Shown here piece by piece: positions 5,832 to 32,681 of a stretch of 32,681 nucleotides of DNA (within the stretch, counting starts at the first letter, position 1; the number at the start of each line of letters is the position of its first letter). Source of the DNA: Rhodoblastus sphagnicola (GTDB lineage Bacteria > Pseudomonadota > Alphaproteobacteria > Rhizobiales > Beijerinckiaceae); assembly GCF_002937075.1 (NCBI RefSeq), contig NZ_NHSJ01000111.1:1-32681 (forward strand), read 5' to 3'. The translations under genes were made by a program, and so were the position numbers. Below the pieces are notes generated by a model, which was not told where the DNA came from, did not search any database, and saw nothing but the letters and a program-made list of their open reading frames with translations.

Positions 5832-5841
5832 GCGCCAAACG

Positions 5842-9189: not shown

Positions 9190-9205
9190 TTGATACAGCT
9201 GGTTC

Positions 9206-9226
9206 ATCAAGGTGACTAACCTTGAT
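9206..9226 (+). promoter_or_regulatory. Perfect hairpin between parA and parB
   Basis: ATCAAGGT (9206-9213) and ACCTTGAT (9219-9226) form a perfect 8-bp stem around a 5-nt loop. It takes up much of the 53-bp parA-parB gap and ends 16 nt before the parB ATG, just ahead of the GGGG ribosome-binding site at 9232-9235. No U-run follows, so it does not look like a classic intrinsic terminator. It may protect or attenuate the downstream message, or affect parB translation. Its function is inferred from position only. Confidence 0.5.
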
Positions 9227-9242
9227 TATTCGGGGTAATGAG

Positions 9243-14197: not shown

Positions 14198-14241
14198 GTC
14201 GGTTCGGGCGGCTTGCGTCAGGCCGCGACATGAGGTGGATC

Positions 14242-15186
14242 ATGGGTATTGATTTGACGGGCCTTCGCGCGCTGAATTTTGCATATCGCGTCTATGATTT
14301 CGATTTTACGAGCACGGTGACGCTCGGCCGGCACGAGATCCATTTCTGGAAACAGGAATTCGATACGCTGCGAAACAATTTCGATTTCGCTTATGACGAG
14401 ACATTGGCGCTCGGCGACTTCTGCGAGCCTCTGCTGCAAAAACTCGGGGCCAGGACCATAACGTCCATAGACGCGTCCGCCTTTGAAGGCGCATCGTTCA
14501 TCCATGATTTCAATCGCCCGGTTCCGGAAAGCCTGCACAACCAATTCGATACATTCCTGGACTTCGGAACGATCGAGCACGTCTTCGATGTCGCGCAAGT
14601 GATCGAAAACATTGTGAAGATGATCAAACCGGGCGGCAAGATCCTGGTGGTCACCAATGCGAACGGTTTTCCCGCGCACGGCCTGTTTCAGTATTCGCCG
14701 GAGTTCTTCTATAGCGTCTTCAGTGAGCGCAATGGCTTCCGCAACACGAGCATTTTCCTGGTCGACACGTCCAGTCCGAAGCTTTGGCATCTGATACAGC
14801 GCCCGGCAGCGCTCAAGCGGCGCAGCGAAATTCCATTCGAAAAACAGATGATGATGGTGGTGTTTTCCACCAAGTCGCAAGACGTGGATCAGTTGAGCGT
14901 GATTCAGTCCGACTATGAAGACACCTGGACACGGTTTGAAGCCAAAGACTGGAGCCGATGGAACGCGCAGGACATACCGAAATGGAAGAAGGCTCTGCAC
15001 GAACTGGTTGGCCCTTACGCCTATCGCGTGGCCGCACAAAAGTTGCTCTCGTTCGGGGTCCGCCACAAATATAGGCTGGATCGCACCTTGATCAACCCGG
15101 ATGAGGTCGATCCCGGGAGTTTCGTCGGGAAGTTCGTCGCTTCGGCGACCGACATGTCGCTGCGGGCGCCAATTGAGATACATTGA
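14242..15186 (+). CDS. SAM-dependent methyltransferase (class I, methyltransferase-11-like)
   Basis: The 314-residue protein has a degenerate class I methyltransferase core: LGARTITSIDASAFEGASFIHDF supplies the acidic strand-2 region. FDTFLDFGTIEHVFDVAQVIENIVKMIKPGGKILVVTNANG matches strand 4 and the post-II motif of sugar and lipid methyltransferases. The glycine-rich motif I is not obvious, so activity is less certain than fold. The C-terminal third (residues 200-314) has charged and aromatic segments of no recognised family. The ATG at 14242 has GAGG at 14232-14235; an ATG at 14230 in frame is the alternative. It follows the glycosyltransferase by 44 bp, so it may methylate a sugar of the same polysaccharide. 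Confidence 0.75.
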   Translation: MGIDLTGLRALNFAYRVYDFDFTSTVTLGRHEIHFWKQEFDTLRNNFDFAYDETLALGDFCEPLLQKLGARTITSIDASAFEGASFIHDFNRPVPESLHNQFDTFLDFGTIEHVFDVAQVIENIVKMIKPGGKILVVTNANGFPAHGLFQYSPEFFYSVFSERNGFRNTSIFLVDTSSPKLWHLIQRPAALKRRSEIPFEKQMMMVVFSTKSQDVDQLSVIQSDYEDTWTRFEAKDWSRWNAQDIPKWKKALHELVGPYAYRVAAQKLLSFGVRHKYRLDRTLINPDEVDPGSFVGKFVASATDMSLRAPIEIH

Positions 15187-15319: not shown

Positions 15320-16450
15320 TTGAAAGTATGCTCGATATCTCTTCGTGCTCTCTTCCGCAGGCTGATTTGCATGAAATCTGAATCCTGCGGCTGTCGTCTG
15401 TTAAGCGGAAAGTCTGGCCCGCGCCTATGGCGGATTTCGCCGCTGAAGGCCCTCGGACTGAGCATATCCGTGGCGGCGTTTTTGGGCTCGGCGCCAAGAA
15501 CGGCCAGCGTGGCTTCGGCGGCCGTGGCGATCGGGGATGGCTCGTCCAACGCGTCGGCCGGAGCGCCGCAAGTTCCGAACGTGCTGAAGTCCTACGGAGC
15601 GAATGTCCCGACATGGCGCGTCGCCGGCGTGCATTACCATGTCGGCGTCCCGGACGGGCTGATGCTGAAGGACCCTTCCACGATCTCGATGGCCGGGGTA
15701 TCGGTCGATGCGGTCCACCACATCGTCAAGGTGACCGGGAGCAACGTCACGCTGAACGGCTACGATTTTTCTGGCGGCGGCGGTTGGCAGGTCAATGTTC
15801 AGGCGGCAAACACGACGATCAAAAATTGCAACTTCGTCGTTGGCTCCAACAATCTGGTTCCGATCTACGGAACGTCGGGGGCGTCCGACCTGTTCGTCGT
15901 CTATTGCACGATCAACGGCGCCGGGCGCGACCCCAGTCCTTCGGGTGGGCTCATTACTTATAGTGGCGACAGCTTCACCGTCGACCATTGCTGGTTGCAC
16001 GATTCCGGCGGTGACATGATTCAGCAGGAGGGGGGCGGATCCGGCAGCACGATCACGATCGCACACAATCTGATCCAGAATGGCGGTCTGTCGCCCGGCT
16101 CGCACGGCGACTACACCCAGCTTCTCACGTCCGGCCCGGCCACGGTGGAGATCAACTACAATATGACCACTCAGGCCGGCGCCATGTCGCAGGGCCTTAT
16201 GACGGACGCCTACCAGCGCGGCGAGATCACCCACAATGTGATGATCGGCTCCTGCACTTTCTTCACGTCCATGGACATCAAAACCCTTTCGGGAACGATG
16301 ACGGTTCGGGACAACTATTACGACGCTTCCAAAGCCTATGGCTTCGTTTACCCGAACTCGGGGCCGGACGACTCGAGTCCGCTGTCCGTCTTCATTCATA
16401 ACGTCGATATGACCAACGGCGCAGTGGTGGAAGATAGTCGGCGCCAATGA
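15320..16450 (+). CDS. Secreted right-handed beta-helix protein (short form)
   Basis: The protein is about 376 aa. A basic N-terminus leads to a hydrophobic segment (PLKALGLSISVAAFLGSA, about 41-58) and an Ala-rich stretch, which suggests a long signal peptide. The rest (about 75-370) is a right-handed parallel beta-helix: short Asn/Gly-rich coils such as NVTLNGYDFSGGGGWQV, NTTIKNCNFVVGSNN, DSFTVDHCWLHDSGGDMI, STITIAHNLIQNGG and GEITHNVMIG. This fold is used by polysaccharide lyases and glycan-binding proteins. I see no safe catalytic assignment. The start is a TTG at 15320 with AAGGGAG at 15306-15312; ATG 15371 is the alternative. From about residue 61 to 372 it is a near copy of the domain in the giant protein at 30041. 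It ends where that protein's Ig-like repeats begin. Confidence 0.85.
   Translation: MKVCSISLRALFRRLICMKSESCGCRLLSGKSGPRLWRISPLKALGLSISVAAFLGSAPRTASVASAAVAIGDGSSNASAGAPQVPNVLKSYGANVPTWRVAGVHYHVGVPDGLMLKDPSTISMAGVSVDAVHHIVKVTGSNVTLNGYDFSGGGGWQVNVQAANTTIKNCNFVVGSNNLVPIYGTSGASDLFVVYCTINGAGRDPSPSGGLITYSGDSFTVDHCWLHDSGGDMIQQEGGGSGSTITIAHNLIQNGGLSPGSHGDYTQLLTSGPATVEINYNMTTQAGAMSQGLMTDAYQRGEITHNVMIGSCTFFTSMDIKTLSGTMTVRDNYYDASKAYGFVYPNSGPDDSSPLSVFIHNVDMTNGAVVEDSRRQ
15501..16435 (+). repeat. Beta-helix module, copy A of a 0.93-kb direct duplication
   Basis: This segment matches 30531-31462 almost base for base over long stretches. The offset is 15030 bp at the left end and 15027 bp at the right, because one codon differs near 16100 (SPGSHG against LSGHG). 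Similarity begins abruptly at CGGCCAGCGT and ends at the GAT codon before the stop region. By eye, protein identity is in the high eighties of percent. Confidence 0.93.
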
Positions 16451-16535: not shown

Positions 16536-17867
16536 TCACTCCGCGGCCAGATCGCCCGCGGCCAATGGCGACATCCCCCCGGTCACATAGGCCCCGGCGT
16601 TCGTCCGCGCTGCGGCCGCGTCCTCCTTGAAGCCGGCGCGAATCCCAAGGATAACGCCCCAGAGCAGCCACATCGCGTTCCAGAAGTGAACGGTCAGTCC
16701 CACGAGCATGAAAACCCAGATGGCCAGCGTGAAGCCGGTTCCGAGGTTCTGCATGTCATCGTCTCTTGGCGGCTGACGGCCGCGTTTGCCGGCGCCGCCA
16801 AAATAGGCGCTTATATTGGCCAGCAGCAGCAGGGGGATGATGGGAATTCCAAACCTCAGCGGCATCACCAGCCAAACCGCGTCGACAGTCGCGATGTCGA
16901 AAACGTCCTTTTCCACGGAAAATCCAATTTCGTCGAAGCCATAACCCGTCAGTGGCGAAAGCCCGATGTTGTAAAAGGCCCGGTCCCACGTTCCCATGCG
17001 GAAATAGCCGGTCGCAGGATCGAACGTCAAATTCGCGATGATCCACGATAAAGGGTGCTCGGTGACAATCCAGATATAGGCAAAGAAACAGGCGACCATC
17101 GCCGTGAACGCACGCCATCGCCAAGCGTATCGGTGCAGAAGGGCATCATAGCAATAAACAGCAATGACGATGCCGAAGACAAGGAGCGGCGCCGACGACA
17201 TCGCCAGCACGCAACCCAAAATGGAGACGCCAACGAACGTCCATTGCCGAGCATAGATGAACAGGGCGCCCGACACGGTACAGAAGGCGCCGTAAAGGAT
17301 CGGATGCGGAAAAATCGACATGGCCCTTAGGAGCGATCCGCGATATTCCGGCTCCCACGCCAGATGCATGCCGATTATTGGCCCGATCAAGCTGTTGAGC
17401 AGCAGGCGTCCCGAAATATGGTCCAGCATCGCGGCCGCAACCGCTATCGCAACCAGAACTTTCAACGCCTTTACGAACCCTTCGACGGCCGCGCGTCCAA
17501 GAATGAAGCCGCGTGCGACGAAATATCCCCCCAAAAACTCCACCACGAGCGCCTGCGCGGACGACAGGGATTCATAGCGGCCACCGATGATCGGCGCTGC
17601 GACCATCCATGCGCCCACAAGGAGCGCGAACGCGTCGCATGCGACGAAACGCCGTCCCTTGCCAAACATTTGCAACAGCGCGGGGATAAAAAGGATCGAG
17701 ACCATAAGCCGGGCCGCGTAGAATTTGGAATCGCCGATATAAAATGTCAGGCTCGACGGAACCGCCATTGAAGTCATGATGAGAGCGACAACGCCGGCGT
17801 TCGCGTTCCTCGCGGGGACTGCGGCTTCGGAGACGTCGCCAAGGCGTAATTCCCGGTTTCTGCGCAC
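16536..17867 (-). CDS. Wzy-like polysaccharide polymerase / O-antigen ligase family membrane protein
   Basis: This is a polytopic membrane protein of about 443 aa with ten or more hydrophobic segments and no large soluble domain. Near the C-terminus a periplasmic-type loop carries FDPATGYFRMGTWDRAF...SPLTGYGFDEIG...VDAVWLVMPLRFG, a pattern common in Wzy polymerases and O-antigen ligases (the SxxxGxGF region). It probably joins lipid-linked repeat units in the periplasm, working with the flippase at 24081. Start choice is uncertain: GTG at 17867 has GGGAG upstream, whereas TTG at 17945 would add 26 Arg-rich residues and lacks a ribosome-binding site. It is convergent with the beta-helix gene and divergent from the GNAT gene. 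Confidence 0.8.
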   Translation of the reverse strand: MRRNRELRLGDVSEAAVPARNANAGVVALIMTSMAVPSSLTFYIGDSKFYAARLMVSILFIPALLQMFGKGRRFVACDAFALLVGAWMVAAPIIGGRYESLSSAQALVVEFLGGYFVARGFILGRAAVEGFVKALKVLVAIAVAAAMLDHISGRLLLNSLIGPIIGMHLAWEPEYRGSLLRAMSIFPHPILYGAFCTVSGALFIYARQWTFVGVSILGCVLAMSSAPLLVFGIVIAVYCYDALLHRYAWRWRAFTAMVACFFAYIWIVTEHPLSWIIANLTFDPATGYFRMGTWDRAFYNIGLSPLTGYGFDEIGFSVEKDVFDIATVDAVWLVMPLRFGIPIIPLLLLANISAYFGGAGKRGRQPPRDDDMQNLGTGFTLAIWVFMLVGLTVHFWNAMWLLWGVILGIRAGFKEDAAAARTNAGAYVTGGMSPLAAGDLAAE

Positions 17868-18133
17868 GCTGCTGCGCTCCCTTCCTCGGCGCGTTCGACG
17901 ACGCCGAAGTTCAACCTCTTCCAACAGATCGCCAAAATGGCACAAATAAATCTAATTAAATAGATGACAGTCGAAAAGATAAAATATACGAATCAAAATT
18001 AATCCATCGCTTCGCCGCAAGGCGCTGGAGGGCTGATCGGTCTGCCGCGTCTAACGGGTTCCGAATGACCAGCGTCAAAGCCCGTGAGCCGCGAGAGGCC
18101 GGTCGGGACCTCCTCACTGGAGCATGACCGCCA

Positions 18134-19399
18134 ATGACTCAGTTCAATCACGCGCCAGCGTTCCTTGATGAGACCGTTTCTGGCGCGTCCACGCGCGCGC
18201 GTCTCGCCAAGCCCGACGCGGAGCGCGGCGGCGCGACCCTGTCGGGCGACTTCCGCTTGCAAGTGCTGCGCAGCCGCGACGAAATCGAACCGTTCCGAGC
18301 CTTCTGGACCGCGTGTGCGCCCGGCCGCGACTGCGACCTCGACTTCTATCTATTCGTGACCGAGCACATCGAGGGCTGCCTCCGACCCCACGTCGTGGTC
18401 CTGTTCGACGGCGAAAGCCCGGTGGCGCTGCTCGCCGGCCGCATCGACGCGGCCAGGATTCCGGTCAGGGCCGGATATGTCTCGCTTCCCGTTCCCACGC
18501 TCAAGATCCTGCGCATCGTGCACGGCGGCTTCTTGGGAGATCTGAACCCGGAACACGCGCAAAGCCTCATCTCCAGCATCCTCGAAGCGCTCAAGGCGGG
18601 CGAGGCCGACGCCGCCATGCTGGAATCCATCGACCTGCGTTCGCCTCTGGTCGCATGCGCCCGCACCCTTGCGCCCTGGTTTTGCGCCGACCGACTGGTC
18701 CACCCGATCGTTCACCGCTTTCGCGACGTGACCGGCGCGACGGGCGCCTTCCTGGACCAGCTTTCCGTGAGTATGCAAGCGCGACATCGCCGTCGGAGGT
18801 CAAAGCTGAAACGCGCCTTCAAGGCGTTTGAGATCAAGCGGTATCATCAGCCCGATTGCCTGTCGGAATTCATGGCGACCGTCGAGAGCATCGCTGCGAA
18901 ATCCTATCAAAGGGGGATCGGCGTGGGTTTCTCGCGCTCGTCTTTCATTGAGGCGCGGCTTGCTTTCGAGGCGCGCAAGGGATGGCTGCGCGGCTTCGTC
19001 CTCTGTCTCGACGGACAACCCAGCGCCTTCTGGATCGGTTCGTTGCGCGACGAGGTCTTCATCAGCACTTATCTCGCGTTCGATCCGGCCCATGCGGACT
19101 ATGCGCCCGGCATGTATCTGCTGCTGGAGGCGATGGACGCGCTGGTCGCGGAAGCAGCGGGCGCGCGGCTGTTCGACTTCGGCCCCGGCGACGCGGTCTA
19201 CAAGGAGCAACTGTCGAACAGGTTCGTCGAGGAGTCGCCGGTCTACATATTTGCGCCGCGTCTGAAGCCGCTTGCCGTCAACGCGTTGCGATCGGCGGTC
19301 GGCGCCGCGAGCCATGCGGTTCGGCATTCGAGATGGCTGGCGCCGCTGGCGCAGAAGCTGAAGCGCTGGCTTCGCAGCAGGGCCGCCGAAGGCGCATGA
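18134..19399 (+). CDS. GNAT-superfamily acyltransferase of the CelD/BcsL (FemAB-like) type
   Basis: The protein has 421 residues. The first half (about 40-215) is a diverged GNAT fold with FRLQVLRSRDEIEPFRAFWTAC and VVVLFDGESPVALLAGR. A very basic stretch (RHRRRRSKLKRAFKAF) follows, then a second GNAT half with SYQRGIGVGF, GWLRGFVLCLDGQPSAFWIGS, and the signature DFGPGDAVYKEQL near the end. These proteins commonly sit in exopolysaccharide and cellulose loci and are thought to acylate or aminoacylate sugars, though few are biochemically proven. The ATG at 18134 begins a full-length protein. It is divergent from the Wzy-like gene across an AT-rich gap (17946-18133). Confidence 0.8.
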   Translation: MTQFNHAPAFLDETVSGASTRARLAKPDAERGGATLSGDFRLQVLRSRDEIEPFRAFWTACAPGRDCDLDFYLFVTEHIEGCLRPHVVVLFDGESPVALLAGRIDAARIPVRAGYVSLPVPTLKILRIVHGGFLGDLNPEHAQSLISSILEALKAGEADAAMLESIDLRSPLVACARTLAPWFCADRLVHPIVHRFRDVTGATGAFLDQLSVSMQARHRRRRSKLKRAFKAFEIKRYHQPDCLSEFMATVESIAAKSYQRGIGVGFSRSSFIEARLAFEARKGWLRGFVLCLDGQPSAFWIGSLRDEVFISTYLAFDPAHADYAPGMYLLLEAMDALVAEAAGARLFDFGPGDAVYKEQLSNRFVEESPVYIFAPRLKPLAVNALRSAVGAASHAVRHSRWLAPLAQKLKRWLRSRAAEGA

Positions 19400-19441: not shown

Positions 19442-20347
19442 TCAGCGGTTCCAGGCCACCCGGGGCTCGCGGCGAAGCAACGACAGCATGGTCAAGGCCC
19501 GGTGCCACCGGACCGCGCCCATCACGGCGATGGCTTGGCGCCGCTCGCGCAACCCCTCGATCCGGTCGCTGGTCATGACGGTGAGCGCGCCGGCGAGCGG
19601 GGAGGCGAGCACGAGCAGAGCGCGAACAAACCAGCGCACGCGCCATGCCGGGTCGCTTTCCGCCATGCGCCGGTAATGCGCGATATGCCGATCCCACTTG
19701 GCGTAAAGCTCGGTCATTGAGGCGCGGGCAGGGTGGAACACCACCATTTCCGCCACGTAGCGGAATTGCACGTTGGCGGCGCAGGCGCGCTTGCCCCAAT
19801 CCATGTCCTCCGCGATCTCGATTCCCGCGAACGGTCCGACGCGGTCGAAATCCTCGCGATGCATGGCGAGGTTCAACGTGCCGGCATAGCCATGTTTCTC
19901 GATATAGAGCTGGGAGCGGTAGCCGAACACGCTCTCGTAAGCCTCGATGGCGCGGGGGCGGTTCGCGTTCGGGCGCCAGATGCGGACGTCGCCGCCCAGC
20001 ACGACGCCCGGCGGCGATGAGGCCAAAGTCGAGCTTATGCTCGCGAGCCAGTCCGGGTGGGCGCGGCAATCGGCGTCAATGAAGGCGAGAATATGGCCGA
20101 GCGCCCCGGCGACGCCGGTGTTCCGGGCCGGGCCGGGTCCAGGGCGCTTCTCTTCAAGCAGACGCACGCCCGGATGACGCGAAATCACATCGGCGGGCGG
20201 AGCCGAAGACCCATTGTCCACGACGACGATCTCGAACAGGTCGCGATCGAGCGACTGCGCCTCAAGACTGGAAAGGCAGGCGTCGAGCGCGTCGGGCTGG
20301 TTGAGATGCGGGATAATCACGCTTATCGCAAGCATATTTAATGACAT
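19442..20347 (-). CDS. Family 2 glycosyltransferase
   Basis: This 301-residue GT2 enzyme begins with ISVIIPHLNQPDALDACLSSLEAQ and has the nucleotide-sugar motif VVVDNGSS (42-48). ARNTGVAGALGHILAFIDADC contains the DxD (91-93), and the acceptor/base region is IEIAEDMDWGKRA (about 176-188). The C-terminus holds a hydrophobic segment (FVRALLVLASPLAGALTV) that may touch the membrane. It should transfer one sugar to the lipid-linked oligosaccharide. The ATG at 20347 has GGAG nine bases upstream; ATG 20335 is an alternative. It is divergent from the WecG-like gene across 224 bp of AT-rich DNA. Confidence 0.9.
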   Translation of the reverse strand: MSLNMLAISVIIPHLNQPDALDACLSSLEAQSLDRDLFEIVVVDNGSSAPPADVISRHPGVRLLEEKRPGPGPARNTGVAGALGHILAFIDADCRAHPDWLASISSTLASSPPGVVLGGDVRIWRPNANRPRAIEAYESVFGYRSQLYIEKHGYAGTLNLAMHREDFDRVGPFAGIEIAEDMDWGKRACAANVQFRYVAEMVVFHPARASMTELYAKWDRHIAHYRRMAESDPAWRVRWFVRALLVLASPLAGALTVMTSDRIEGLRERRQAIAVMGAVRWHRALTMLSLLRREPRVAWNR

Positions 20348-20571: not shown

Positions 20572-21360
20572 ATGCGCTTGTCGTTCCTGGGATGTCCCAT
20601 CGACGTGCTTTCCATGGCGGAAACCGTGGAGCGGGCGCGCGATGCGATGCTAAGCCGGCGGCGCCTTCAGCACGTCGCGCTCAACGTCGCCAAGTTCGTC
20701 AACATGCGCTCGGACCCGACCCTCGCGGCCGATGTCGCAAACAGCGACCTCGTGGGCGTGGACGGCATGGGCATCGTCTGGGGGGCGCGCGCGCTCGGCC
20801 TGCCGGTCAAGGCGCGCGTCGCCGGCGTCGATCTGCTCACGGAGCTTCTCGAACTCTGCGCGCGCGAGGGGTTCAGGCCCTTCTTCCTCGGCGCCCGCGC
20901 GGATGTGCTGCAGCGCGCCGCCGCGCGCGCCGCCGAGCGTCATCCCGGTCTCGAATTCGCGGGCTTGCAGCACGGCTATTTCACGCGGGAGCAGGAGCCC
21001 GCCGTCGTCCACATGATCCGCGACAGCGGCGCTGACTGCCTGTTCATCGGCATGCCCACGCCGCGCAAGGAAAGGTTTCTCGCCGCGCATCGCGATGACC
21101 TCGCGACGCCTTTCGTCATGGGCGTCGGCGGATCGTTCGATGTGCTCGCCGGCGTCGTGCGCCGCGCGCCCCGGTTGGTGCAGCGGCTCGGCTTCGAGTG
21201 GCTGTACCGCGTCTTCCAGGAGCCGCGCCGCATGTGGTGGCGCTATGCCCGAACCAACACGCTGTTTGCGGCCATACTGGCGCAAGCCTTCATCCGCCAG
21301 CGGCTGAAATCGATAATGGACGGCGGCCTCGCGCCGCCCGCAAGTCGGGTCGGAGGCTGA
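20572..21360 (+). CDS. WecG/TagA/CpsF family glycosyltransferase (GT26)
   Basis: This 262-residue protein is a typical member of the WecG/TagA family, which transfers N-acetylmannosamine or its uronic acid to undecaprenyl-PP-GlcNAc. Visible motifs are VALNVAKFVNMRSDP, the catalytic-region NSDLVGVDGMGIVWGARALG, FFLGARADVLQRAA, the LFIGMPTPRKERF block with a conserved Pro-Arg-Lys-Glu, and GVGGSFDVLAG followed by RAPRLVQRLGFEWLYRVFQEPRR. The basic, aromatic C-terminus is the membrane-association tail seen in this family. The ATG at 20572 has a strong GAGGGGG upstream. It leads the run with wecB (2-bp gap) and wecC, which make the donor sugar, so a ManNAc or ManNAcA donor is likely. Confidence 0.92.
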   Translation: MRLSFLGCPIDVLSMAETVERARDAMLSRRRLQHVALNVAKFVNMRSDPTLAADVANSDLVGVDGMGIVWGARALGLPVKARVAGVDLLTELLELCAREGFRPFFLGARADVLQRAAARAAERHPGLEFAGLQHGYFTREQEPAVVHMIRDSGADCLFIGMPTPRKERFLAAHRDDLATPFVMGVGGSFDVLAGVVRRAPRLVQRLGFEWLYRVFQEPRRMWWRYARTNTLFAAILAQAFIRQRLKSIMDGGLAPPASRVGG

Positions 21361-21362
21361 AA

Positions 21363-22478
21363 GTGAAAGATCATATTCTCGTTCTGTTGGGAACGCGCCC
21401 GGAAGCCATCAAGCTTTTTCCGGTGATCCAGCGGCTGAAGGCGGAAAATGTCGCCGTGACGGTCTGCGCCACGGCGCAGCACCGCGAGATGCTCGACCAG
21501 GTGCTCAAACTCGCCCAGATTGCGCCGGACGTCGATCTGAACGTGATGACGCCGAACCAGACCCTCGACCATCTTTCGGCGCGCCTGCTGAACGAAATCG
21601 GCGAGGTTCTCGGTCGCGTGAAGCCGACGCGCGTCGTGGTGCAGGGCGACACCGCGACGGCCATGATCGGCGCGCTGGCTTCCTATTACCATCGCATTCC
21701 CGTCTCCCATGTCGAAGCCGGCCTGCGAAGCGGCGATATCTATGCGCCCTTCCCGGAGGAGGTGAACCGGAAAATCGTCTGCTCGATCGCAGACCAGCAT
21801 TTCGCGCCGACGCCGCGCGCCGCCAGCGCGCTGCGCTCCGAAAACGTGCCGGAAGAGCGCATCCACGTCACCGGCAACACGGTGGTCGACGCGCTGATTC
21901 TCGCCAAGGCGATGGTGGAGGCGGATCCCTGCATGTCGTCGCGCTGGGACGGCGTCAGGGAGCAGCACGGCAACCGGCGTCTCATCCTTGTGACCTGCCA
22001 CCGTCGCGAGAACTTTGGCGGCGGCGTGCTCAACATCGTCAAGGCATTGGAGACGATCCTGGCTCGGGAGGACGTCGCGATCGTGCTGCCCGTGCATCCC
22101 AATCCCAACGTCCGCGACATCTTCGCCTCGCGCCTCGCCCACCACCCGCGCGTTACCCTGATCTCGCCGCAGGAATACACCGACTTCGTCAGCCTGCTCT
22201 CGATGTCCTATCTGGTGCTGACGGACTCCGGCGGCGTGCAGGAGGAGGCGCCGACTTTCGGCAAGCCGGTGCTGGTGATGCGCGAGACCACGGAACGTCC
22301 CGAGGGTCTGGAAGCCGGCACGGCGCTGCTCGTCGGCGCCGACTACAACAAGATCGTCGGGGAAACCTTCCGGCTGCTCGACGACGAACAGAGCTACGCG
22401 GCCATGGCGCGGTCGCATAATCCGTTCGGCGACGGACACGCCAGCGAGCGAATTGTCAAGGTTCTCCTCCATGCTTGA
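21363..22478 (+). CDS. wecB: UDP-N-acetylglucosamine 2-epimerase (non-hydrolysing)
   Basis: WecB interconverts UDP-GlcNAc and UDP-ManNAc. The 371-residue protein is full length. It begins with ILVLLGTRPEAIKLFPVI and has VQGDTATAMIGALASYY, the HVEAGLRSGDIYAPFPEEVNRK block, and VTGNTVVDAL. VTCHRRENFGGGV follows, then LTDSGGVQEEAPTFGKPVLVMRETTERPEG, all hallmarks of the non-hydrolysing family. The GTG at 21363 is the start: GGAGG at 21352-21356 precedes it and the conserved N-terminus begins there, although the frame stays open upstream. Its stop overlaps the wecC start by eight bases. Confidence 0.96.
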   Translation: MKDHILVLLGTRPEAIKLFPVIQRLKAENVAVTVCATAQHREMLDQVLKLAQIAPDVDLNVMTPNQTLDHLSARLLNEIGEVLGRVKPTRVVVQGDTATAMIGALASYYHRIPVSHVEAGLRSGDIYAPFPEEVNRKIVCSIADQHFAPTPRAASALRSENVPEERIHVTGNTVVDALILAKAMVEADPCMSSRWDGVREQHGNRRLILVTCHRRENFGGGVLNIVKALETILAREDVAIVLPVHPNPNVRDIFASRLAHHPRVTLISPQEYTDFVSLLSMSYLVLTDSGGVQEEAPTFGKPVLVMRETTERPEGLEAGTALLVGADYNKIVGETFRLLDDEQSYAAMARSHNPFGDGHASERIVKVLLHA

Positions 22479-23790
22479 GTTCCAGAAGGTTTCCGTCATC
22501 GGACTGGGCTACATCGGCCTGCCCACCGCCGCCCTCATCGCCAGCCGGGGCATCCAGGTGCATGGCGTAGACACCAATGAGCATGTGGTGCGAACGGTCG
22601 CTTCCGGCACGATCCACATTTCGGAGCCGGACCTCGACGGTCTCGTGTCGAAAGTGGTGTCGAGCGGGGCGCTGACGACATCGACCAGACCGCAGCCCGC
22701 GGATGTGTTCATGATCGCGGTGCCCACGCCCGTCAACGCCGACAACCGCCCCGACCTTTCGATGGTCCGCGCCGCGGTCGACAGCATCACGGATGTGCTG
22801 GAGCCGGGCAATCTGGTGATCCTGGAATCGACTTCTCCCATTGGGACCACCGAAGGCGTGGCGACGCAGATCGTCGAGCGGCGGCCCGACCTCCACGTCG
22901 GAGCGAATGGCCACGGCGCCCGTAGCCCGAACGGCAACGGACATGCGAACGGCCATGGCCCCGATGAAACCGCCAACGCCACCATCAACGTCGCCTATTG
23001 CCCCGAGCGCGTGCTGCCGGGGCGCATCCTCACCGAACTCATCAACAACGACCGCTGCATCGGCGGCGTGACGCCCGCCTGCACGCGGCGCGCCCAGCGC
23101 TTCTACAAGAGTTTCGTGCGCGGCGCCTGCGTGCCCACCACGGCCCGCGCGGCCGAACTGGTGAAGCTGACGGAGAACGCCTTTCGCGACACCAACATCG
23201 CCTTCGCCAACGAACTGTCGATGGTGTGCGACCGCTTCGGCATCAACGTCTGGGAAGTGATCGATCTGGCCAACCGTCACCCGCGCGTGAACGTGCTGCG
23301 GCCCGGCCCCGGCGTCGGCGGCCACTGCATCGCCGTCGATCCCTGGTTCATCATCGATTCCGCGCCCGACCTCACGCGGCTGATGCGCACCAGCCGCGAG
23401 GTCAACAACAACAAGACGCAACAGGTCATCGAACGCGCCGAAGCCCTGATCGAGGAACGCCCCTACGCCGATGTGGCCTGCTGCGGCCTGGCCTTCAAGG
23501 CGAACATCGACGATCTGCGCGAGAGTCCGGCGATGGAGGTGGCGCGCCATCTCGCAGCCAAATACGGATCGCGGATCAAGGTCGTCGAACCGAACCTGCG
23601 GCGTCCGCTCACGGAGCTCACCGAACTCGGAGTCGAATTCATGGACATCGACACGGCGCTACGCCGCTGCGAGATCGCGGTGCTGCTCGTCGATCACGAT
23701 GAATTCAAGATGGTTCCGCTCGCCGACCGGCGCCACCTCGACGTCCTCGACACCCGCGGCGTCTGGCAGGATTTGCCAGCGCGCGCCTGA
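22471..23790 (+). CDS. wecC: UDP-N-acetyl-D-mannosamine dehydrogenase
   Basis: WecC oxidises UDP-ManNAc to UDP-ManNAcA with NAD+. The protein is about 439 aa. It shows the NAD-binding VSVIGLGYIGLPTAALIAS (residues 7-25), FMIAVPTPVN, the EST(S)PIGTTE loop, the catalytic-lysine helix ELVKLTENAFRDTNIAFANEL and the catalytic cysteine in GPGVGGHCIAVDPWF. A UDP-binding C-terminal domain follows (FKANIDDLRESPAMEVA). Residues 144-168 (DNA 22900-22977) form an Asn/Gly/His-rich insert between VERRPDLHVG and the conserved INVAYCPERVLPG; I do not expect this in the family. The ATG at 22471 overlaps wecB. UDP-Glc dehydrogenase is excluded by the gene pairing rather than by a single residue. Confidence 0.93.
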   Translation: MLEFQKVSVIGLGYIGLPTAALIASRGIQVHGVDTNEHVVRTVASGTIHISEPDLDGLVSKVVSSGALTTSTRPQPADVFMIAVPTPVNADNRPDLSMVRAAVDSITDVLEPGNLVILESTSPIGTTEGVATQIVERRPDLHVGANGHGARSPNGNGHANGHGPDETANATINVAYCPERVLPGRILTELINNDRCIGGVTPACTRRAQRFYKSFVRGACVPTTARAAELVKLTENAFRDTNIAFANELSMVCDRFGINVWEVIDLANRHPRVNVLRPGPGVGGHCIAVDPWFIIDSAPDLTRLMRTSREVNNNKTQQVIERAEALIEERPYADVACCGLAFKANIDDLRESPAMEVARHLAAKYGSRIKVVEPNLRRPLTELTELGVEFMDIDTALRRCEIAVLLVDHDEFKMVPLADRRHLDVLDTRGVWQDLPARA

Positions 23791-24080: not shown

Positions 24081-25748
24081 ATGACCCCGCTCCACCGTTC
24101 CTTCGTCCTGTCCGCGGTCGAACGTTACGCCAATATTGTCATCTTGTTCTTTACAACGGCGGCGCTGGCGCGATTGCTGAGCCCAGAGGAATTCGGCGTC
24201 TATGCGGTCGTCGGCGCAGTGACGACGGTGATCGCGCTGACCACGCACGAATTCGGCGGCGCGAACAATATCATTCAAAAGGCGGAGCTCTCCGACCTTT
24301 ATGTAAGAACGGCCTTTACCGTTACCTTCGCCCTTTCGATCGCGATGGGCCTTGGGCTCTATCTGATGGCGGACGCCATCGGCGGATGGTTCAAGGTCGA
24401 GGGCGTGGGGGCTGGCGTCAAGATCGCTGCGCTCGGGTTCGCGGTCACGCCATTTTCGACGATAGCGCTCGCACTTTTTCGACGCGATCTCATGTTTGGC
24501 GTCATCGCGGTCGGCAATTTTGTGGGCAGCGTCGCCTTCGCCGCAACGTCGGTCGTGCTCGCGCTCAAAGGCTATAGCTATCTGGCGCCGGTCTGGGGCC
24601 AGATAGCGGGCAGCGCCGCACAGGCGCTCTATTTCATATGGGCGCGCCGGAGCCTCCGCATTTTTGCTCCTTCGCTGGAGGGGCATCGCGAAGTCATCCA
24701 CTTTGGACTTTATTCGAGCGGCCTCGCGCTCATCAACATGGTCTTCAACACTGCGCCGCAATTTCTTCTCGCGCGCATTCTCGGCTTCGGCGCGGTCGGC
24801 CTCTACAGCAGAGCGGTCACCATCACCCAATTGTTCGACCGCCTGGTGGGTCAGGCGATCGGTCCCGCAGTCATGCCGGCTGTCGCCTCGCAGACCCGCG
24901 CCGGCGAGGACCTCAAGCTCATCTACCTGAAGTCGATCGCGTTGATGTCGGCGCTGCAATGGCCGTTCCTGCTCAGCGTCGCAATTCTGGCGCGACCGCT
25001 CATCGAGCTTTGGCTCGGCCCGACGTGGCTGGACGCCGCGCCGCTGGTCGGCTGGCTCAGCGCCGGCTCTCTCGCGCTGTTCGCCGGCTACCTGACGTAC
25101 CCCATCCTCGTCGCCGCTGGCCACGTCCGCGACGCGCTGACTTCCGCGCTGATCTCGCTGCCGCCATCGCTGATGGTGATGTTCGCCTCGAGTTTCTTCG
25201 GCATCGAGGCGGTGGCGGCGTCTACCCTGCTGACAATGCCGTTCCAGGCGGCGGTGTCGATGTTCTTCATCTGCCGCCGGCTCGACGTCGAGGTGGCGGA
25301 GATCGCCAGAGCGCTGCGCAAGAGCGCGCTCGTCGCGACCGCCTGCGGTTGCGCCGCCGCCGTGGGCGCCGCGGCTTTGCAGGCCGGCTGGCTCGGCCCC
25401 CTGGCGAGCCTCGCGGTCGGCGGAGTTCTCGTCGCCTTTGCGTGGCTGGCCGCGCTCGCCGCCACGGATCACCCGCTGCTGACGGAGGTGGTTGCCGCGT
25501 GCGGCGGGTCGATCCCATCGTTCGGGCGCGCCGCCGCGTCTGCTCCGGCTCCGGTCGTCAGGCCGCAGCGAGACAAAGCTGAGGCTGGAGGACCCGGCAT
25601 GTCCAAAGAGACAGACGTCAACTCGGCCGCGACGCGCGGATCTCTCACCCCGACGACGTCTGAACCGAAGATAATCAGCTTGGCCGAGGCCTGCCGGACG
25701 CCTCGTCCAAGTTCTGGAGCCTTCAACACGGGAGAGCGTCGTGGCTGA
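24081..25748 (+). CDS. Wzx-type oligosaccharide flippase (MOP superfamily) with long disordered tail
   Basis: This 555-residue protein has about 12-14 hydrophobic segments over residues 1-470. It has the N-terminus of the polysaccharide exporter family: SAVERYANIVILFFTTAALARLLSPEEFGVYAVVGAV, with the typical R-L-L-x-P-E-x-F-G. It should flip undecaprenyl-linked repeat units across the inner membrane for polymerisation by the Wzy-like protein. The last 80 residues are hydrophilic, Ala/Pro/Ser/Thr-rich and probably disordered, beyond what the family needs. Inside this tail, Met507 (ATG at 25599) has its own strong GGAGGA ribosome-binding site and could yield a 49-residue peptide. The gene overlaps the SDR gene by eight bases. 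Confidence 0.88.
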   Translation: MTPLHRSFVLSAVERYANIVILFFTTAALARLLSPEEFGVYAVVGAVTTVIALTTHEFGGANNIIQKAELSDLYVRTAFTVTFALSIAMGLGLYLMADAIGGWFKVEGVGAGVKIAALGFAVTPFSTIALALFRRDLMFGVIAVGNFVGSVAFAATSVVLALKGYSYLAPVWGQIAGSAAQALYFIWARRSLRIFAPSLEGHREVIHFGLYSSGLALINMVFNTAPQFLLARILGFGAVGLYSRAVTITQLFDRLVGQAIGPAVMPAVASQTRAGEDLKLIYLKSIALMSALQWPFLLSVAILARPLIELWLGPTWLDAAPLVGWLSAGSLALFAGYLTYPILVAAGHVRDALTSALISLPPSLMVMFASSFFGIEAVAASTLLTMPFQAAVSMFFICRRLDVEVAEIARALRKSALVATACGCAAAVGAAALQAGWLGPLASLAVGGVLVAFAWLAALAATDHPLLTEVVAACGGSIPSFGRAAASAPAPVVRPQRDKAEAGGPGMSKETDVNSAATRGSLTPTTSEPKIISLAEACRTPRPSSGAFNTGERRG

Positions 25749-26763
25749 TCTGAAAGGCAAGCGAATTCTGGTCACGGGGGGCGCGGGTTTCCTCGGCTCC
25801 CACATCATCGACCTGTTGTGCAGCGAGGGCTGCATCGAGATCGTCGCGCTCGACAACATGACCAGGGGCCATCAGGAGAACCTTCAGCGGGCGTCGACGC
25901 GCGGTCCTATTCGTCTGGTCGAGGGCGACGTGCGCGACGTCGGCCTCATGGACTCGCTGGTCAGATCGGCCGACATCATCTTCCACATGGCGGCGCCGAG
26001 CATGGCGCAGTGCGCCGCCGAACCGCGCCTCGCCATGGAGGTCATGTCGCAGGCGACATTCAATCTGCTGGAGCTCTGCGTCCGGCACCATGTGGAGAAG
26101 CTCGTCGTGGCGTCCTCGGCCTCGGTCTACGGACTGGCTGACGAATTTCCGACCACCGAGCGGCACAATTCCTACAACAACCGGACCCTCTTCGGGGCGG
26201 CCAAGGCGTTCAACGAGGGCTTGTGCCGGGCCTTTGCCGACATGTACGGCCTCGACTACGTCGCGTTCCGCTATTTCAACGTCTTCGGGGAGCGAATGGA
26301 CGTTCAAGACCGCTACACAAAGGTTCTGATCCGCTGGATGGATCGGATCGATTCCGGCCTCCCGCCAATCATTTTCGGAGATGGCGGGCAGACCATGGAT
26401 TTGGTCCATGTCCGCGATGTCGCGCGCGCCAATATCCTTGGAGCCAAGGCCAAGGCGACCGACGAAGTGTTCAATGTCGCGAGCGGAACCGAGACCAGCC
26501 TGCTGCAGCTCGCGCGGGCGCTGGCCTCGGTGATGGGCCGTCGGGACCTCGCCCCCGCATTCGCTCCCGAACGCTCCCTCAATCCGACGCCGCGCTGCCT
26601 CGCCAGCACCGGAAAGGCGGAACGCCTGCTCGGATTCCGCGCCGCGATTCCGCTCGAGAAGGGGCTTGGGGAACTGGTCAAGTGGTGGCGAAGCGAACGC
26701 GCTCTCGGTCTGGCGGCCTCGCGCGACCCGGCGGCGGCTGAACCGGCGGCTGAACGCATTTGA
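25741..26763 (+). CDS. NAD-dependent epimerase/dehydratase (extended SDR)
   Basis: The protein is 340 aa. The Rossmann motif VTGGAGFLGSH (11-21) binds NAD, and the substrate half has YFNVFGERMDVQDRYTKVLIRWMDRI, IFGDGGQTMDLVHVRDVARAN and FNVASGTETSL. The serine motif VVASSASVYG (123-131) is present. Where the catalytic YxxxK is expected, the sequence reads NRTLFGAAK, with Phe151 (TTC at 26191-26193) in place of Tyr and Lys155 kept. The protein may act on a nucleotide sugar such as UDP-GlcNAc or UDP-ManNAcA, or may be impaired. Start GTG 25741 has GGGAGAG upstream and overlaps the flippase stop, so expression is probably coupled. Confidence 0.88.
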   Translation: MADLKGKRILVTGGAGFLGSHIIDLLCSEGCIEIVALDNMTRGHQENLQRASTRGPIRLVEGDVRDVGLMDSLVRSADIIFHMAAPSMAQCAAEPRLAMEVMSQATFNLLELCVRHHVEKLVVASSASVYGLADEFPTTERHNSYNNRTLFGAAKAFNEGLCRAFADMYGLDYVAFRYFNVFGERMDVQDRYTKVLIRWMDRIDSGLPPIIFGDGGQTMDLVHVRDVARANILGAKAKATDEVFNVASGTETSLLQLARALASVMGRRDLAPAFAPERSLNPTPRCLASTGKAERLLGFRAAIPLEKGLGELVKWWRSERALGLAASRDPAAAEPAAERI

Positions 26764-26780
26764 AGCAGGATGATCCCGTG

Positions 26781-27962
26781 ATGCGCTTATCCATTGGCGT
26801 GCTGATGCCGCTGCCGCTCAACGGCATGGGCGTTGGTTATACCTGCAGCTCGCTGATCGCGGGCATGGCGCGCGAGAATGTCCACGCGGAGGTGGTGACA
26901 TCGCGCTGCCGCCTGTCGCTGCCCTCCGTCGAGGTGGTGGAAGTTCTGCCGAAATGGGCGCGCCGCGCGCCCTACGGATGGGTCAGGAACATGGCCGCGC
27001 GGCGGCTGGAGCAGCACTTTCTCGACCGCGTCGCGTCGTGGCCTTCGCATGCGCGGGCCGCCTGGCTTTGGCCGGGCGCAAGCCTCGAAACCATCGCTGG
27101 GCTGCGGCGCCGGGGGGCGACCGTCATCCGGGAGCAATTCAACTGTTTCACCGGCGTGGCCAAGGTCATACTCGACGACGCCTATCGCAGCATCGGCGCC
27201 GAGCCCGCCCACGCGATCTCCGATGCGATCGTCGAGGCCGAACGGCGGGTTCTGGACGCCGTGGACCATGTGTTCTGCCCCGGACCCAATGTCGAGCGGT
27301 CGCTGGCGGAGAGCGGCGTGGACCTCGGCAAGCTGTTGCCGGCGAGCTATGGCTGGGACCCCTCGCGGCTGTCGACGACCCGTCGCGGGTTGCCGCCGGC
27401 CGCCGGGATGACGCTGCTGTTCGTCGGTTCAATCTGCGTGCGCAAGGGCGCACACCTCCTGCTGGACTCTTGGGCGCGCAGCGGCGTGAAGGGGCGGCTC
27501 GTCCTGGTCGGCGAGATGGAGCCGACGATCAGGGAGAAATGCGCGCATCTGCTGGCGCGCGACGACGTGATCGTGCTCGATTATTCGCGCGAGATCGGCC
27601 CGCTCTACCGTTGCGCCGACGCCTTCGTCTTTCCAACGCTGGAGGAAGGGAGCCCACTCGTCGCCTATGAAGCCTGCGGCGCCGGATTGCCGGTGGTGAC
27701 CACAAGAATGGGCGCAGGCGCCCTGGTGCGTCCGCGGCGCGAGGGTCTGGTCGTCGACGCTTATGATGCGCGGGGATGGATCTCGGCGATTCGCGAGTTG
27801 GCGGAGGACGGCGTGTTGCGCCGCCGCCTGGCCTGCGGGGCGCGCCGGCGCGCGGCGGATTTCACTTGGCCGGCTGTGGCCCAGCGGCGCCTTGCGCAGA
27901 TCGAGGGGCTTTTCGCCGACGAGACCCCCCGCCCCGTCCTCGATGAAGCGCTGCGGGCCTGA
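26781..27962 (+). CDS. Family 4 glycosyltransferase (GT-B)
   Basis: This 393-residue protein has the GT-B two-domain plan. The N-terminal domain has the glycine loop MPLPLNGMGVGYTCSSLIAGMA and several WPGASLET/VIREQFNCF segments. The C-terminal donor domain has MTLLFVGSICVRKGAHLLLDSW, LVLVGEME, IGPLYRCADAFVFPTLEEGSPLVAYEACGAGLPVVTTRMG with the E-x7-E pattern of GT4. ATG 26781 is preferred; GTG 26778 has AGGA at a slightly better distance. A TTG at 26760 overlapping the SDR stop is less likely. It is the last gene of the plus-strand run, and transposon relics begin 105 bp later. Confidence 0.9.
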   Translation: MRLSIGVLMPLPLNGMGVGYTCSSLIAGMARENVHAEVVTSRCRLSLPSVEVVEVLPKWARRAPYGWVRNMAARRLEQHFLDRVASWPSHARAAWLWPGASLETIAGLRRRGATVIREQFNCFTGVAKVILDDAYRSIGAEPAHAISDAIVEAERRVLDAVDHVFCPGPNVERSLAESGVDLGKLLPASYGWDPSRLSTTRRGLPPAAGMTLLFVGSICVRKGAHLLLDSWARSGVKGRLVLVGEMEPTIREKCAHLLARDDVIVLDYSREIGPLYRCADAFVFPTLEEGSPLVAYEACGAGLPVVTTRMGAGALVRPRREGLVVDAYDARGWISAIRELAEDGVLRRRLACGARRRAADFTWPAVAQRRLAQIEGLFADETPRPVLDEALRA

Positions 27963-30040: not shown

Positions 30041-32681
30041 ATGACTATTTTTGGTGGCTCGCACGATGCGGTTGGGGAAGCGCCCCAACGGTCTTTCTTG
30101 TTCGCGGGGTATGCGGCTCGGATCTCCCGGCAGGTGACGGGGGGCGACTACGCGGCGGGCGTTCAACAGGACGTCACGCTGGTGATTCCCACGGCCAGTA
30201 ACCTCGCGATCGACTTCAGTCAGGCGACCGCCGCGCCCACGATCTCATCCTTGTCGCCGGAGACCAGCGTCGTCGTCGGCGATGGCGTCGCCGACGTGAA
30301 CATGCCGACGCTGAAAGGCTCGGCCGCGGCCAATTCCACGGTCGCAGTCGACGACGGCTCGACCGAACTTGGAGTCACCACGGCCAGTGCGACCGGCGGC
30401 GACAGTTCGGGCCATGTCAGCGCGGCCGAGACAGCCGTCGACGTCGTCGTGAACACGCAAGTTCTCACGGCCTCGGTCGAAGCAAGTGTCGCTCCCGCCC
30501 TTGCCGTGATGGCGACGGGCGCAGCCGCAACGGCCAGCGTGGCTTTGGCGGCCGTGGCCATCGGGGATGGCTCGTCCAACGCGCCGGCCGGAGCGCCGCA
30601 AGTTCCGAACGTGCTGAATTCCTACGGAGCGAATGTCCCGACGTGGCAGGTCGCCGGCGTGGATTATCATGTCGGCGTCCCGGACGGACTGACGCTGAAG
30701 GACCCTTCCACGATCTCGATGGCCGGGGTATCGGTCGATGCGGTCCACCACATCGTCAAGGTGACCGGGAGCAATGTCACGCTGAACGGCTACGATTTTT
30801 CTGGCGGCGGCGGTTGGCAGGTCAATGTCCAGGCGGCAAACACGACGATCGAAAATTGCAACTTCGTCGTTGGCTCCAATAATCAAACGCCGATCTACGG
30901 AACCTCGGGGGCGTCCAACCTGTCCGTCATCGCTTGCACGATCAACGGCGCCGGGCACGACTGCAATCCTACGGGTGGGCTAATTACTTACAGTGGCGAC
31001 AGCTTCACCGTCGACCATTGCTGGTTGCACGATTCCGGCTCTGGCATGATCCAGCAGCAGGGTGGCGGATCCGGCAGCACGATCACGATCGAACACAACC
31101 TGATCCAGAATGCGGGCCTGTTGTCCGGCCACGGCGCCTATACCCAACTCTTTACGTCCGGCCCTGCCACGGTGGAGATCAACTACAATACGACGACGCA
31201 GTCCGGCTCCCTTTCGCAGGGGCTGATGACGGACGCCTACCAGCACGGCGAGATCACCCACAACGTGATGATCGGCTCCTGCACTTTCTTCACGTCCATG
31301 GACATCAAGACCCTTTCGGGAACGATGGCGGTGCAGGACAACTATTACGACGCCTCCAAAGCCTATGGCTTCATTTACCCGAACGCGGGGCCGGACGACT
31401 CGAGTTCGCTTTCTATCTTCACCCATAACGTCAATATGACAAACGGCGCCGTACTGCAGGATTCGACGGCCGCGCCCACGATCTCGTCCTGGTCGCCGGA
31501 CACCGGCGTCGTCGGCGACGGCATCACCGATGTGAACACGCCGAAGCTGTCAGGCTCGGCCGCAGCCAATTCTACGGTCACCGTCTATGACGGCTCGACC
31601 AAGCTTGGCGTCGCGACCGCAGATTCGACGGGCGCCTGGAGCTTCACCACCGCGAAGCTGAGCGACGGGATCCATTCCGTGACCGTGACGAACACCAACA
31701 GTTCGGGCCTTGTCAGCGCGGCCTCGAAGGCCGTCACCATCACCGTGGATACACATGCCCCCGCGGCCCCGGTCGAGAGCGGCTATTCCATCGTCAACGG
31801 CAATCATGCGCTGGTTTCGGGAACCGCCGAAGCCAACAGCGCGATCGCCGTGTATGACGGGACGACGGTCGTCGGCGCGGCCACGACGACCGCAAGCGGA
31901 ACTTGGAGCCTGACCACGACGGCGCTTGCGAGCGGCGCCCACGCCCTGACCGCGACCGCGACGGACGCCGCCGGAAACAAGAGCGCGGTTTCGACGGCGC
32001 TCGGCCTGGCGATCGTCTCGCCTCCCGCCGCGCCCACGATCTCGTCCTGGTCGCCGGACACCGGCGTCGTCGGCGACGGCATCACCGATGTCAACACGCC
32101 GAAGCTGACAGGCTCGGCCGTGGCCAATTCCACGGTCACCGTCTATGACGGTTCGACCAAGCTTGGCGTCGCGACCGCCGATTCGACGGGGGCCTGGAGC
32201 TTCACCACCGCGAAGCTGAGCGACGGGACCCATGTCCTGACCGCGACGGACACCAACAGTTCTGGCCTTGTCAGCGCGGCCTCGACGGCCGCCACCATCA
32301 CCGTGGACACACATGCTCCCGCGGCCCCGGTCGAGAGCGGCTATTCCATCGTCAACGGCAATCATGCGCTGGTTTCGGGAACCGCCGAAGCCAACAGCGC
32401 GATCGCCGTGTATGACGGGACGACGGTCGTCGGCACGGCCGCGACGACCGCAAGCGGAGCTTGGAGCCTGACCACGACGGCGCTTGCGAGCGGCGCCCAC
32501 GCCCTGACCGCGACCTCGACGGACGCCGCCGGCAACAAGAGCGCGGCTTCGACGGCGCTCGGCCTGGCGATCGTCTCGCCTCCCGCCGCGCCCACGATCT
32601 CGTCCTGGTCGCCGGACACCGGCGTCGTCGGCGACGGCATCACCGATGTCAACACGCCGAAGCTGACAGGCTCGGCCGCGG
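30041..32681 (+). CDS. Giant surface/secreted protein: Ig-like modules plus beta-helix domain (partial, runs off the right edge)
   Basis: One frame stays open for 880 codons to the window end without a stop. ATG 30041 has GGGAG at 30030-30034. Residues 1-64 lack a clear signal peptide, so type I-like secretion is possible. Residues 65-140 hold a degenerate Ig-like module (APTISSLSPE...) lacking about 20 residues of its middle. Residues 164-474 are a right-handed beta-helix domain nearly identical to the protein at 15320. From residue 477 come alternating Ig-like modules (APTISSWSPDTGVVGDG..., then SGTAEANSAIAVYDGTTVVG...), with GAWSFTTAKLSDGTH and SLTTTALASGAHALTAT strands typical of bacterial Big-type adhesin repeats. 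Such proteins act in adhesion or biofilm matrix. Its C-terminus, with any secretion signal, lies outside the window. Confidence 0.88.
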   Translation, partial: MTIFGGSHDAVGEAPQRSFLFAGYAARISRQVTGGDYAAGVQQDVTLVIPTASNLAIDFSQATAAPTISSLSPETSVVVGDGVADVNMPTLKGSAAANSTVAVDDGSTELGVTTASATGGDSSGHVSAAETAVDVVVNTQVLTASVEASVAPALAVMATGAAATASVALAAVAIGDGSSNAPAGAPQVPNVLNSYGANVPTWQVAGVDYHVGVPDGLTLKDPSTISMAGVSVDAVHHIVKVTGSNVTLNGYDFSGGGGWQVNVQAANTTIENCNFVVGSNNQTPIYGTSGASNLSVIACTINGAGHDCNPTGGLITYSGDSFTVDHCWLHDSGSGMIQQQGGGSGSTITIEHNLIQNAGLLSGHGAYTQLFTSGPATVEINYNTTTQSGSLSQGLMTDAYQHGEITHNVMIGSCTFFTSMDIKTLSGTMAVQDNYYDASKAYGFIYPNAGPDDSSSLSIFTHNVNMTNGAVLQDSTAAPTISSWSPDTGVVGDGITDVNTPKLSGSAAANSTVTVYDGSTKLGVATADSTGAWSFTTAKLSDGIHSVTVTNTNSSGLVSAASKAVTITVDTHAPAAPVESGYSIVNGNHALVSGTAEANSAIAVYDGTTVVGAATTTASGTWSLTTTALASGAHALTATATDAAGNKSAVSTALGLAIVSPPAAPTISSWSPDTGVVGDGITDVNTPKLTGSAVANSTVTVYDGSTKLGVATADSTGAWSFTTAKLSDGTHVLTATDTNSSGLVSAASTAATITVDTHAPAAPVESGYSIVNGNHALVSGTAEANSAIAVYDGTTVVGTAATTASGAWSLTTTALASGAHALTATSTDAAGNKSAASTALGLAIVSPPAAPTISSWSPDTGVVGDGITDVNTPKLTGSAA
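30531..31462 (+). repeat. Beta-helix module, copy B of the 0.93-kb direct duplication
   Basis: This is the partner of 15501-16435 in the same orientation. It is one codon shorter. Most differences are scattered single-base substitutions, many changing residues at coil turns (for example LVPIYG to QTPIYG, DPSPSG to DCNPTG). It is embedded between Ig-like modules, whereas copy A stands alone behind a signal-like sequence. Confidence 0.93.
31472..32681 (+). repeat. 558-bp in-frame tandem repeats encoding paired Ig-like modules
   Basis: Units begin with GCGCCCACGATCTCGTCC at 31472, 32030 and 32588, an exact 558-bp (186-codon) period. The first two units are complete and nearly identical by eye; the third is cut by the window end. 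Each unit holds two different Ig-like modules of roughly 94 and 92 residues. High similarity at the DNA level implies recent duplication or ongoing homogenisation. Confidence 0.95.

Follow-up and report, generated by a model that had tools for sequence, protein, structure and literature searches.

Why should one polysaccharide locus of Rhodoblastus sphagnicola encode the same domain both as a small protein with a signal-like N-terminus and as a module of a giant immunoglobulin-like (Ig) repeat protein? The question arises from a stretch of 32,681 nucleotides, here called the window, which is the first part (bases 1-32681) of contig C111, 45,676 bases in length, and in which the two copies of the domain flank a set of polysaccharide genes. 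We analyzed the window and the adjoining contig, and compared them with related genomes. We consider it probable, with real room for doubt, that a single polysaccharide-directed beta-helix domain is exported by two routes and acts on the polymer made by its own locus.

The Window Contains Two Highly Similar Copies of One Domain

The preliminary description of this DNA reported highly similar direct repeats that differ in length by one codon. Our best local alignment agrees on both points: the copies lie on the same strand, 842 of 924 aligned columns are identical (91%), and the only gap is 3 nt long. The alignment defines the repeat blocks listed in Table 1, which are spaced by 15030/15027 nt; the repeat ends given previously, 16435 and 31462, overshoot it by ~13 nt. 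Between these copies the dN/dS ratio, a comparison that the description had proposed, is 0.36 (dN 0.072, dS 0.198).

In the free gene, a hydrophobic, signal-like stretch precedes the domain, and the repeat block begins within this stretch. The fused copy lies, as previously proposed, inside an Ig-repeat protein, in a frame that runs from its ATG into the Ig-like repeats, and it retains the last residues of the signal-like stretch even though a signal of this kind would be superfluous there. We read this, together with the starting point of the repeat, as a hint that the free gene was the source of the fused module, part of which may be so derived. A third domain copy lies just beyond the window (C111:33358-34251) and shares 77% amino acid identity with the free copy; no fourth was found in the whole genome at an E-value of 0.001. 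The genome holds these three copies, all at this locus, rather than the many unlinked copies that would have spoken against a connection with polysaccharide genes.

Table 1. Features of the locus. Positions refer to the window, or to the whole contig where prefixed with C111.
Feature	Position	Strand	Remarks
Methyltransferase-like gene	14230..15186	+	Start provisional; 1/5 Pfam models above cut-off
Free beta-helix gene, signal-like N-terminus	15374..16450	+	ATG 15374; frame open from TTG 15320
Repeat block, free copy	15499..16422	+	Starts within signal-like region
wzy-like polysaccharide polymerase gene	16536..17945	-	Adjoins free copy; 7 hydrophobic segments by simple scan
Acetyltransf_6 (GNAT) protein	18134..19399	+	PF13480
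Family 2 glycosyltransferase	19442..20347	-	PF00535
WecG/TagA/CpsF family glycosyltransferase	20572..21360	+	TIGR00696, 147 bits (cut-off 69)
wecB, UDP-GlcNAc 2-epimerase	21339..22478	+	TIGR00236, 461 bits (cut-off 210)
wecC, UDP-ManNAc dehydrogenase	22453..23790	+	PRK11064, 548 bits (cut-off 459)
wzx-like flippase	24081..25748	+	PRK10459, 136 bits, below cut-off 273
Sugar-nucleotide epimerase/dehydratase	25741..26763	+	Best model galE, below cut-off
Group 1 glycosyltransferase	26760..27962	+	PF13692, PF00534
Large gene: Ig fragment, beta-helix module, Ig repeats (Big_13/Big_6)	30041..32681	+	ATG 30041; open at window end
Repeat block, fused copy	30529..31449	+	
Ig-like repeats, 558-nt period	31469..32681	+	
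PrtD-type ABC transporter	C111:34979-36946		After tail of large gene; TIGR01842, 703 bits (cut-off 510)
HlyD adaptor	C111:36934-38247		After ABC gene; TIGR01843, 373 bits (cut-off 209)
Sugar transferase	C111:43046-44674		PF02397; outside window

The Large Protein Resembles a Type I Secretion Substrate

At the end of the window the large gene runs into a 96-N assembly gap (C111:32682-32777), past which Ig repeats resume in another frame and are followed by the third domain copy and a tail ending in ..DFHFA. A change of frame is expected across a gap of estimated length, and we infer that the pieces on either side form one gene; single frames carrying two domain modules exist in G238, G592, and L095. 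With this C-terminus, and with the genes for a PrtD-type ABC transporter and an HlyD adaptor next to it, the large protein looks like a substrate of a type I secretion system (T1SS). The tail occurs once in the window genome, and DFHF[A/G] terminates all 18 tail-bearing frames surveyed (18/18; one DFHFG). An assignment as an RTX protein was rejected, GGxGxD nonapeptide repeats being present in 0/18 of these frames. The earlier label "anchored" for the large form is not supported: its C-terminus is of the T1SS type, T1SS genes lie next to it, and we found no anchor in it. A T1SS product can remain on the cell, as the accessible part of one report describes for PlyA of Rhizobium leguminosarum (PMC1403797).

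Ahead of the domain, 15/18 free frames contain a signal-like stretch, as judged by simple hydrophobicity, and the fused frames contain none except the window's own, which is weak and internal. The earlier description of the free form as soluble and secreted may not hold, since in a cell with two membranes a signal at the N-terminus would by itself take a protein no farther than the periplasm. A basic tail (net charge of at least +2 over the last ten residues, e.g., ..PKPKPSRP) was observed at the other end of 15/18 free forms, the window's not among them.

The Copies Enclose Genes for Polysaccharide Synthesis

The enclosed genes had been named wecG-like, wecB, wecC, and wzx. The first three names hold, with scores above NCBIfam cut-offs, and the fourth is weakened to wzx-like, its match to the MOP flippase model being below cut-off. 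The wzy-like gene itself has no match in Pfam or NCBIfam; a relative in L120, aligned at 48% identity, passes the Wzy_C model PF04932 at 32.1 vs. 31.7 bits. As markers of a Wzx/Wzy locus, there are a wzx-like gene below cut-off, a wzy-like gene recognized through its relative alone, and a PF02397 sugar transferase that is present. The methyltransferase-like gene narrowly passes one Pfam cut-off (21.9 vs. 21.2) and fails four.

Upstream of the large gene, ~1.2 kb (28812-30040) lacks a long frame and has a GC content near 49%; Rfam gave no RNA element at gathering score anywhere in the window, this region included. Toward the other end of the window lie an IS66 transposase gene (418-2031, minus strand; four IS66 Pfam domains above cut-off) and a segment (4395-10103) with a GC content of 45-51%, below that of its surroundings. 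From reading their translations, we take the frames of this segment to resemble mnmE, mnmG, rsmG, parA, and parB, a block of genes usually located near the replication origin. Carriage on a plasmid was rejected after a plasmid collection gave no match, and neither the free protein nor the T1SS tail matched anything in PHROGs.

The Domain Is Predicted to Form a Beta-Helix Outside the Tested Enzyme Families

The free copy matches the PF13229 profile at 30.9 bits (cut-off 25.9; same DNA as L005), as does the fused copy at 28.9 bits when scanned alone; the profile is not listed for the fused copy when the whole 880-aa piece is scanned, and the third copy does not match it. Structure prediction with AlphaFold2 yielded a strand-rich model of the free copy (pLDDT 92.6, pTM 0.93), and the domain is, as a high-confidence prediction, a right-handed parallel beta-helix. 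A Foldseek search gave nothing at an E-value of 0.001 or better: the best solved structural neighbors were GH136, PL6, GH55, GH87, and K1-capsule lyase structures with TM-scores of about 0.2-0.45, and viral neighbors, namely tailspikes and pectate-lyase-like proteins, were equally weak. No sequence relative of the domain was found in the PDB. Neither Pfam nor NCBIfam gave a match to polysaccharide lyase families with a beta-helix fold, such as PL1 and PL6, the GH16 catalytic domain is absent among the Pfam matches, and the AlgE-type motif YG.DPH occurs in 0/42 domain rows. Judged by these comparisons, the domain belongs to none of the tested enzyme families. Across the same 42 rows, the fully invariant polar residues are few (Q16, W31, Y38, D81, H194, N213, N238, and N264).

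That no catalytic family or motif was matched would suit a domain that binds the polymer without catalysis, in which case the small form would assist folding or export as a chaperone or export factor next to Wzy and the large form would be a matrix protein that holds polymer with its Ig repeats. The proteins with extra modules (G238, G592, L095) would likewise suit multivalent binding, and reports available to us in part describe the T1SS-secreted Rap proteins of R. leguminosarum as binding polysaccharide (PMC9298526) and the T1SS-secreted ExpE1 of Sinorhizobium meliloti as required for EPS II production (PMC1403797). Such a binder nevertheless seems rather unlikely to us, given that the weak structural neighbors are mostly polysaccharide-active enzymes and that Asp81 and His194 are invariant in 42/42 rows.

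The Free and Fused Forms Occur Together in Other Genomes

We searched for the domain at an E-value of 1e-8 in genomes of the order, of Bradyrhizobium (the genus of G106), and of the window's family. There were matches in 4/397 order genomes, 16/195 Bradyrhizobium genomes, and 5/298 family genomes, which amount to 21 distinct genomes; the window's genus was represented by ten further genomes, of which G009 alone had a match. The earlier claim that two forms of one domain are tied to a polysaccharide locus is borne out here, since the free form, the fused form, and a nearby wzy-like gene were all present in 18/21. The exceptions were G842 and G009, with one match each, and G378, with two weak matches outside the pattern.

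The arrangement of the 18 paired loci is similar. Genes for a T1SS ABC transporter and adaptor directly follow the fused gene in 17/18 (they are ~35 kb away in G046), the free copy has a wzy-like gene within ~6 kb in 18/18 and as its direct neighbor in 10, and the free and fused genes are on one contig within ~18 kb in 16/18, with separate contigs in the drafts G526 and G527. A co-occurrence with wecBC, which had been suggested as a check, was observed for a part of the set: both genes are present in 6/18 (G000, G106, G046, G512, G556, G592) and partly so in two, namely G238, where the stretch starts inside wecB and shows wecC, and G568, where it is cut inside wecC. None were seen in the remaining ten, for which the stretches examined may be too short.

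A scan of named genomes returned no relative with a single-sequence query and 42 loci with a 24-row alignment. Among these loci are further pairs in a Telmatospirillum MAG (L095), a Hyphomicrobiales MAG (L096, L100), B. manausense (L099), B. japonicum SZCCT0231 (L103, L108), genosp. SA-3 (L112), and ARR65 (L128, L129). Rhodopila globiformis (L117) has a free frame and a two-module frame, the latter without a DFHF[A/G]-type tail, and one form alone was seen at several named loci (L121, L122, L125, L126, L130-L132). Two irregular cases were also observed: at Afipia loci the domain is split over two frames in both the fused (L115) and free (L118) genes, which were left uncounted, and at L147 (3594-4611) two T1SS-tail frames overlap on opposite strands, which may reflect an inverted duplication or an assembly error.

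Free and Fused Copies Share Their Descent

On a tree of the 42 domain rows, the free and fused labels must switch nine times or more along branches with good support. We ran IQ-TREE on 16 rows forming 8 pairs, one chosen pair per lineage, with G592, the second modules of G000 and G238, and close relatives left out. Free and fused forms were sisters at 100% support in 7/8 of these lineages, and a single clade of free forms was rejected (p-AU 1.9e-69); an earlier AU test, in which the likelihood deficit was 1877, had given p 0.157. By identity, the fused copy of the same genome is nearest to the free copy in G000 (87% vs. 62%), G046 (58/32), G106 (67/61), G238 (93/43), G521 (97/42), G578 (62/55), and G568 (95/92), and a close orthologue is nearer in ten other genomes. 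The free copy of G592 has nothing close to it, its own fused modules included, and the second module of G238 is closer to that of G106 than to the free copy of G238.

Near-identical free/fused blocks extend over 987 bp at 99.8% identity in G521 and 874 bp at 99.9% in G568, and both stop near the domain edges. In G568, dS between the free and fused copies is 0.045, vs. 0.22 and 0.26 to their G522 counterparts. As sequence patterns, these block identities and dS values are what gene conversion gives. Identities of the domain and of Wzy correlate at 0.95 over 18 genomes and weakly among distinct lineages (0.61 for nine, 0.46 for eight, 0.19 for seven); this correlation stems from close relatives and outliers and was therefore given no weight.

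The near-identical blocks show recombinational copying, and the window's fused copy, whose repeat starts in the signal-like region, may partly stem from the free gene. Duplication and copying without any shared role, with the locus linkage merely inherited, might produce as much. We nonetheless find it improbable that this is the whole explanation, as such pairs are found repeatedly, in distinct lineages and also for other types of domain (see below), and as dN/dS is 0.36 in the window, though the three youngest pairs, which have few changes, give 0.8-1.15. It is very improbable that the domain targets foreign polymers, of plants or competitors, as secreted beta-helix enzymes often do in the case of plants, given that its genes sit within an own-polymer locus beside wzy and that one form is probably retained in the periplasm.

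Other N-Terminal Domains Are Carried on the Same Secretion Chassis

A clear orthologue of the T1SS adaptor was found in 49/195 Bradyrhizobium genomes (at least 534 bits; next best 441), and all 16 domain-bearing Bradyrhizobium genomes are among them. We examined the loci of the remaining 33 adaptor genomes, leaving out seven with a cut or absent fused frame. The 26 complete fused frames have the same tail and Ig repeats and a different N-terminal domain, which is of type B in 17 and type C in 9; types were sorted by motif, with five undecided cases settled by sequence matches. A free copy of the matching domain is present in 17/17 type B genomes (11 in the locus stretch, six known by frame length alone) and in 6/9 type C genomes, no free type C partner being found at an E-value of 1e-10 in G626, G567, and G536.

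The types do not mix. Type B occurs in 0/9 C genomes and type C in 0/17 B genomes; in the 18 genomes with the window's domain type (type A), type B occurs in none and type C in one (a short frame in G238). PF13229 matches were also obtained for those free B and C members that were scanned, and three C members are recovered by a broader type A profile, from which types A and C are probably distant kin.

A Model of One Domain Exported by Two Routes

In the reading that we prefer, an activity on the locus's own polymer, the small form would cross the inner membrane by way of its N-terminal signal and meet new polymer in the periplasm or at its exit. The large form, with the domain on Ig repeats and a T1SS tail at the C-terminus, would pass straight to the outside via the adjacent PrtD/HlyD pair. 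Both forms would most likely cut or otherwise modify the polymer of their own locus, thereby setting its chain length. Repeated copying between the genes would keep the two forms alike, we propose because both must fit one polymer, and a change of domain from strain to strain would hit both together. Within this model, the copies, their pairing, the association with a T1SS, and the common descent are observed, whereas the compartments, the substrate, catalysis, and the reason for the similarity are proposals.

The closest precedents, by analogy, appear to be ExoK/ExsH and AlgG/AlgE. ExoK uses a signal peptide, and ExoK and ExsH are both GH16 proteins. In the available parts of the S. meliloti reports, they are two glycanases that act on the strain's own succinoglycan, with ExsH secreted via the PrsDE T1SS (PMC1403797, PMC4916376). 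On this account, the present pair is similar in having two proteins for the strain's own polymer, one of them exported through a T1SS, and differs in fold, which is GH16 in theirs and a predicted beta-helix here; no report of copying between those two genes was found in our literature searches. The AlgG and AlgE alginate epimerases have a beta-helix fold and the epimerase motif YG.DPH. For Azotobacter vinelandii, the accessible text describes a periplasmic AlgG and extracellular, modular, T1SS-exported AlgE1-7 that act on the same polymer (PMC4432689). So described, that system shares with ours a combination of periplasmic and T1SS-exported modular forms for one polymer; unlike it, the 42/42 domain rows lack YG.DPH, and the locus here is putatively of the Wzx/Wzy type.

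Further likenesses, drawn by description only, are with R. leguminosarum and Sphingomonas. In R. leguminosarum, PlyA, PlyB, and PlyC are PrsDE substrates, plyA precedes prsDE, PlyA is cell-bound while PlyB diffuses, and pRL90140, a protein with parallel beta-helix repeats, is likewise secreted through a T1SS; the available portions of these reports describe no free matching partner (PMC2275737, PMC1403797). Sphingomonas WelR is a lyase of the strain's own welan gum, encoded in the cluster for that polymer, with parallel beta-helix repeats and without a signal peptide; it differs in its Laminin_G_3 region and in the single form described in the part of the report available (PMC7899989). Among the open-access papers listed in our searches, none described such a free/fused pair in its title or the opening of its abstract.

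Tentatively, and as something quite possible, we suggest a general cassette of surface-polysaccharide loci: one polymer-specific domain in two export forms, held identical through gene conversion and swapped jointly upon a change of polymer (at least three types on one constant Ig/T1SS chassis), with periplasmic and outside processing always matched to the polymer. If true, a domain found both beside wzy and at the head of a T1SS substrate would provide a rule for finding strain-specific polymer enzymes or binders. It would also explain why a single activity is repeatedly found on two export routes, ExoK/ExsH being an example, and would make these Bradyrhizobium genomes natural matched sets for studying polymer length control, which is relevant to biofilm and symbiosis.

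A minor observation concerns the window's own free copy (15524-16438). At domain positions 37 and 214 it carries H and M, where 41/42 rows have D and T, and its function may be altered.
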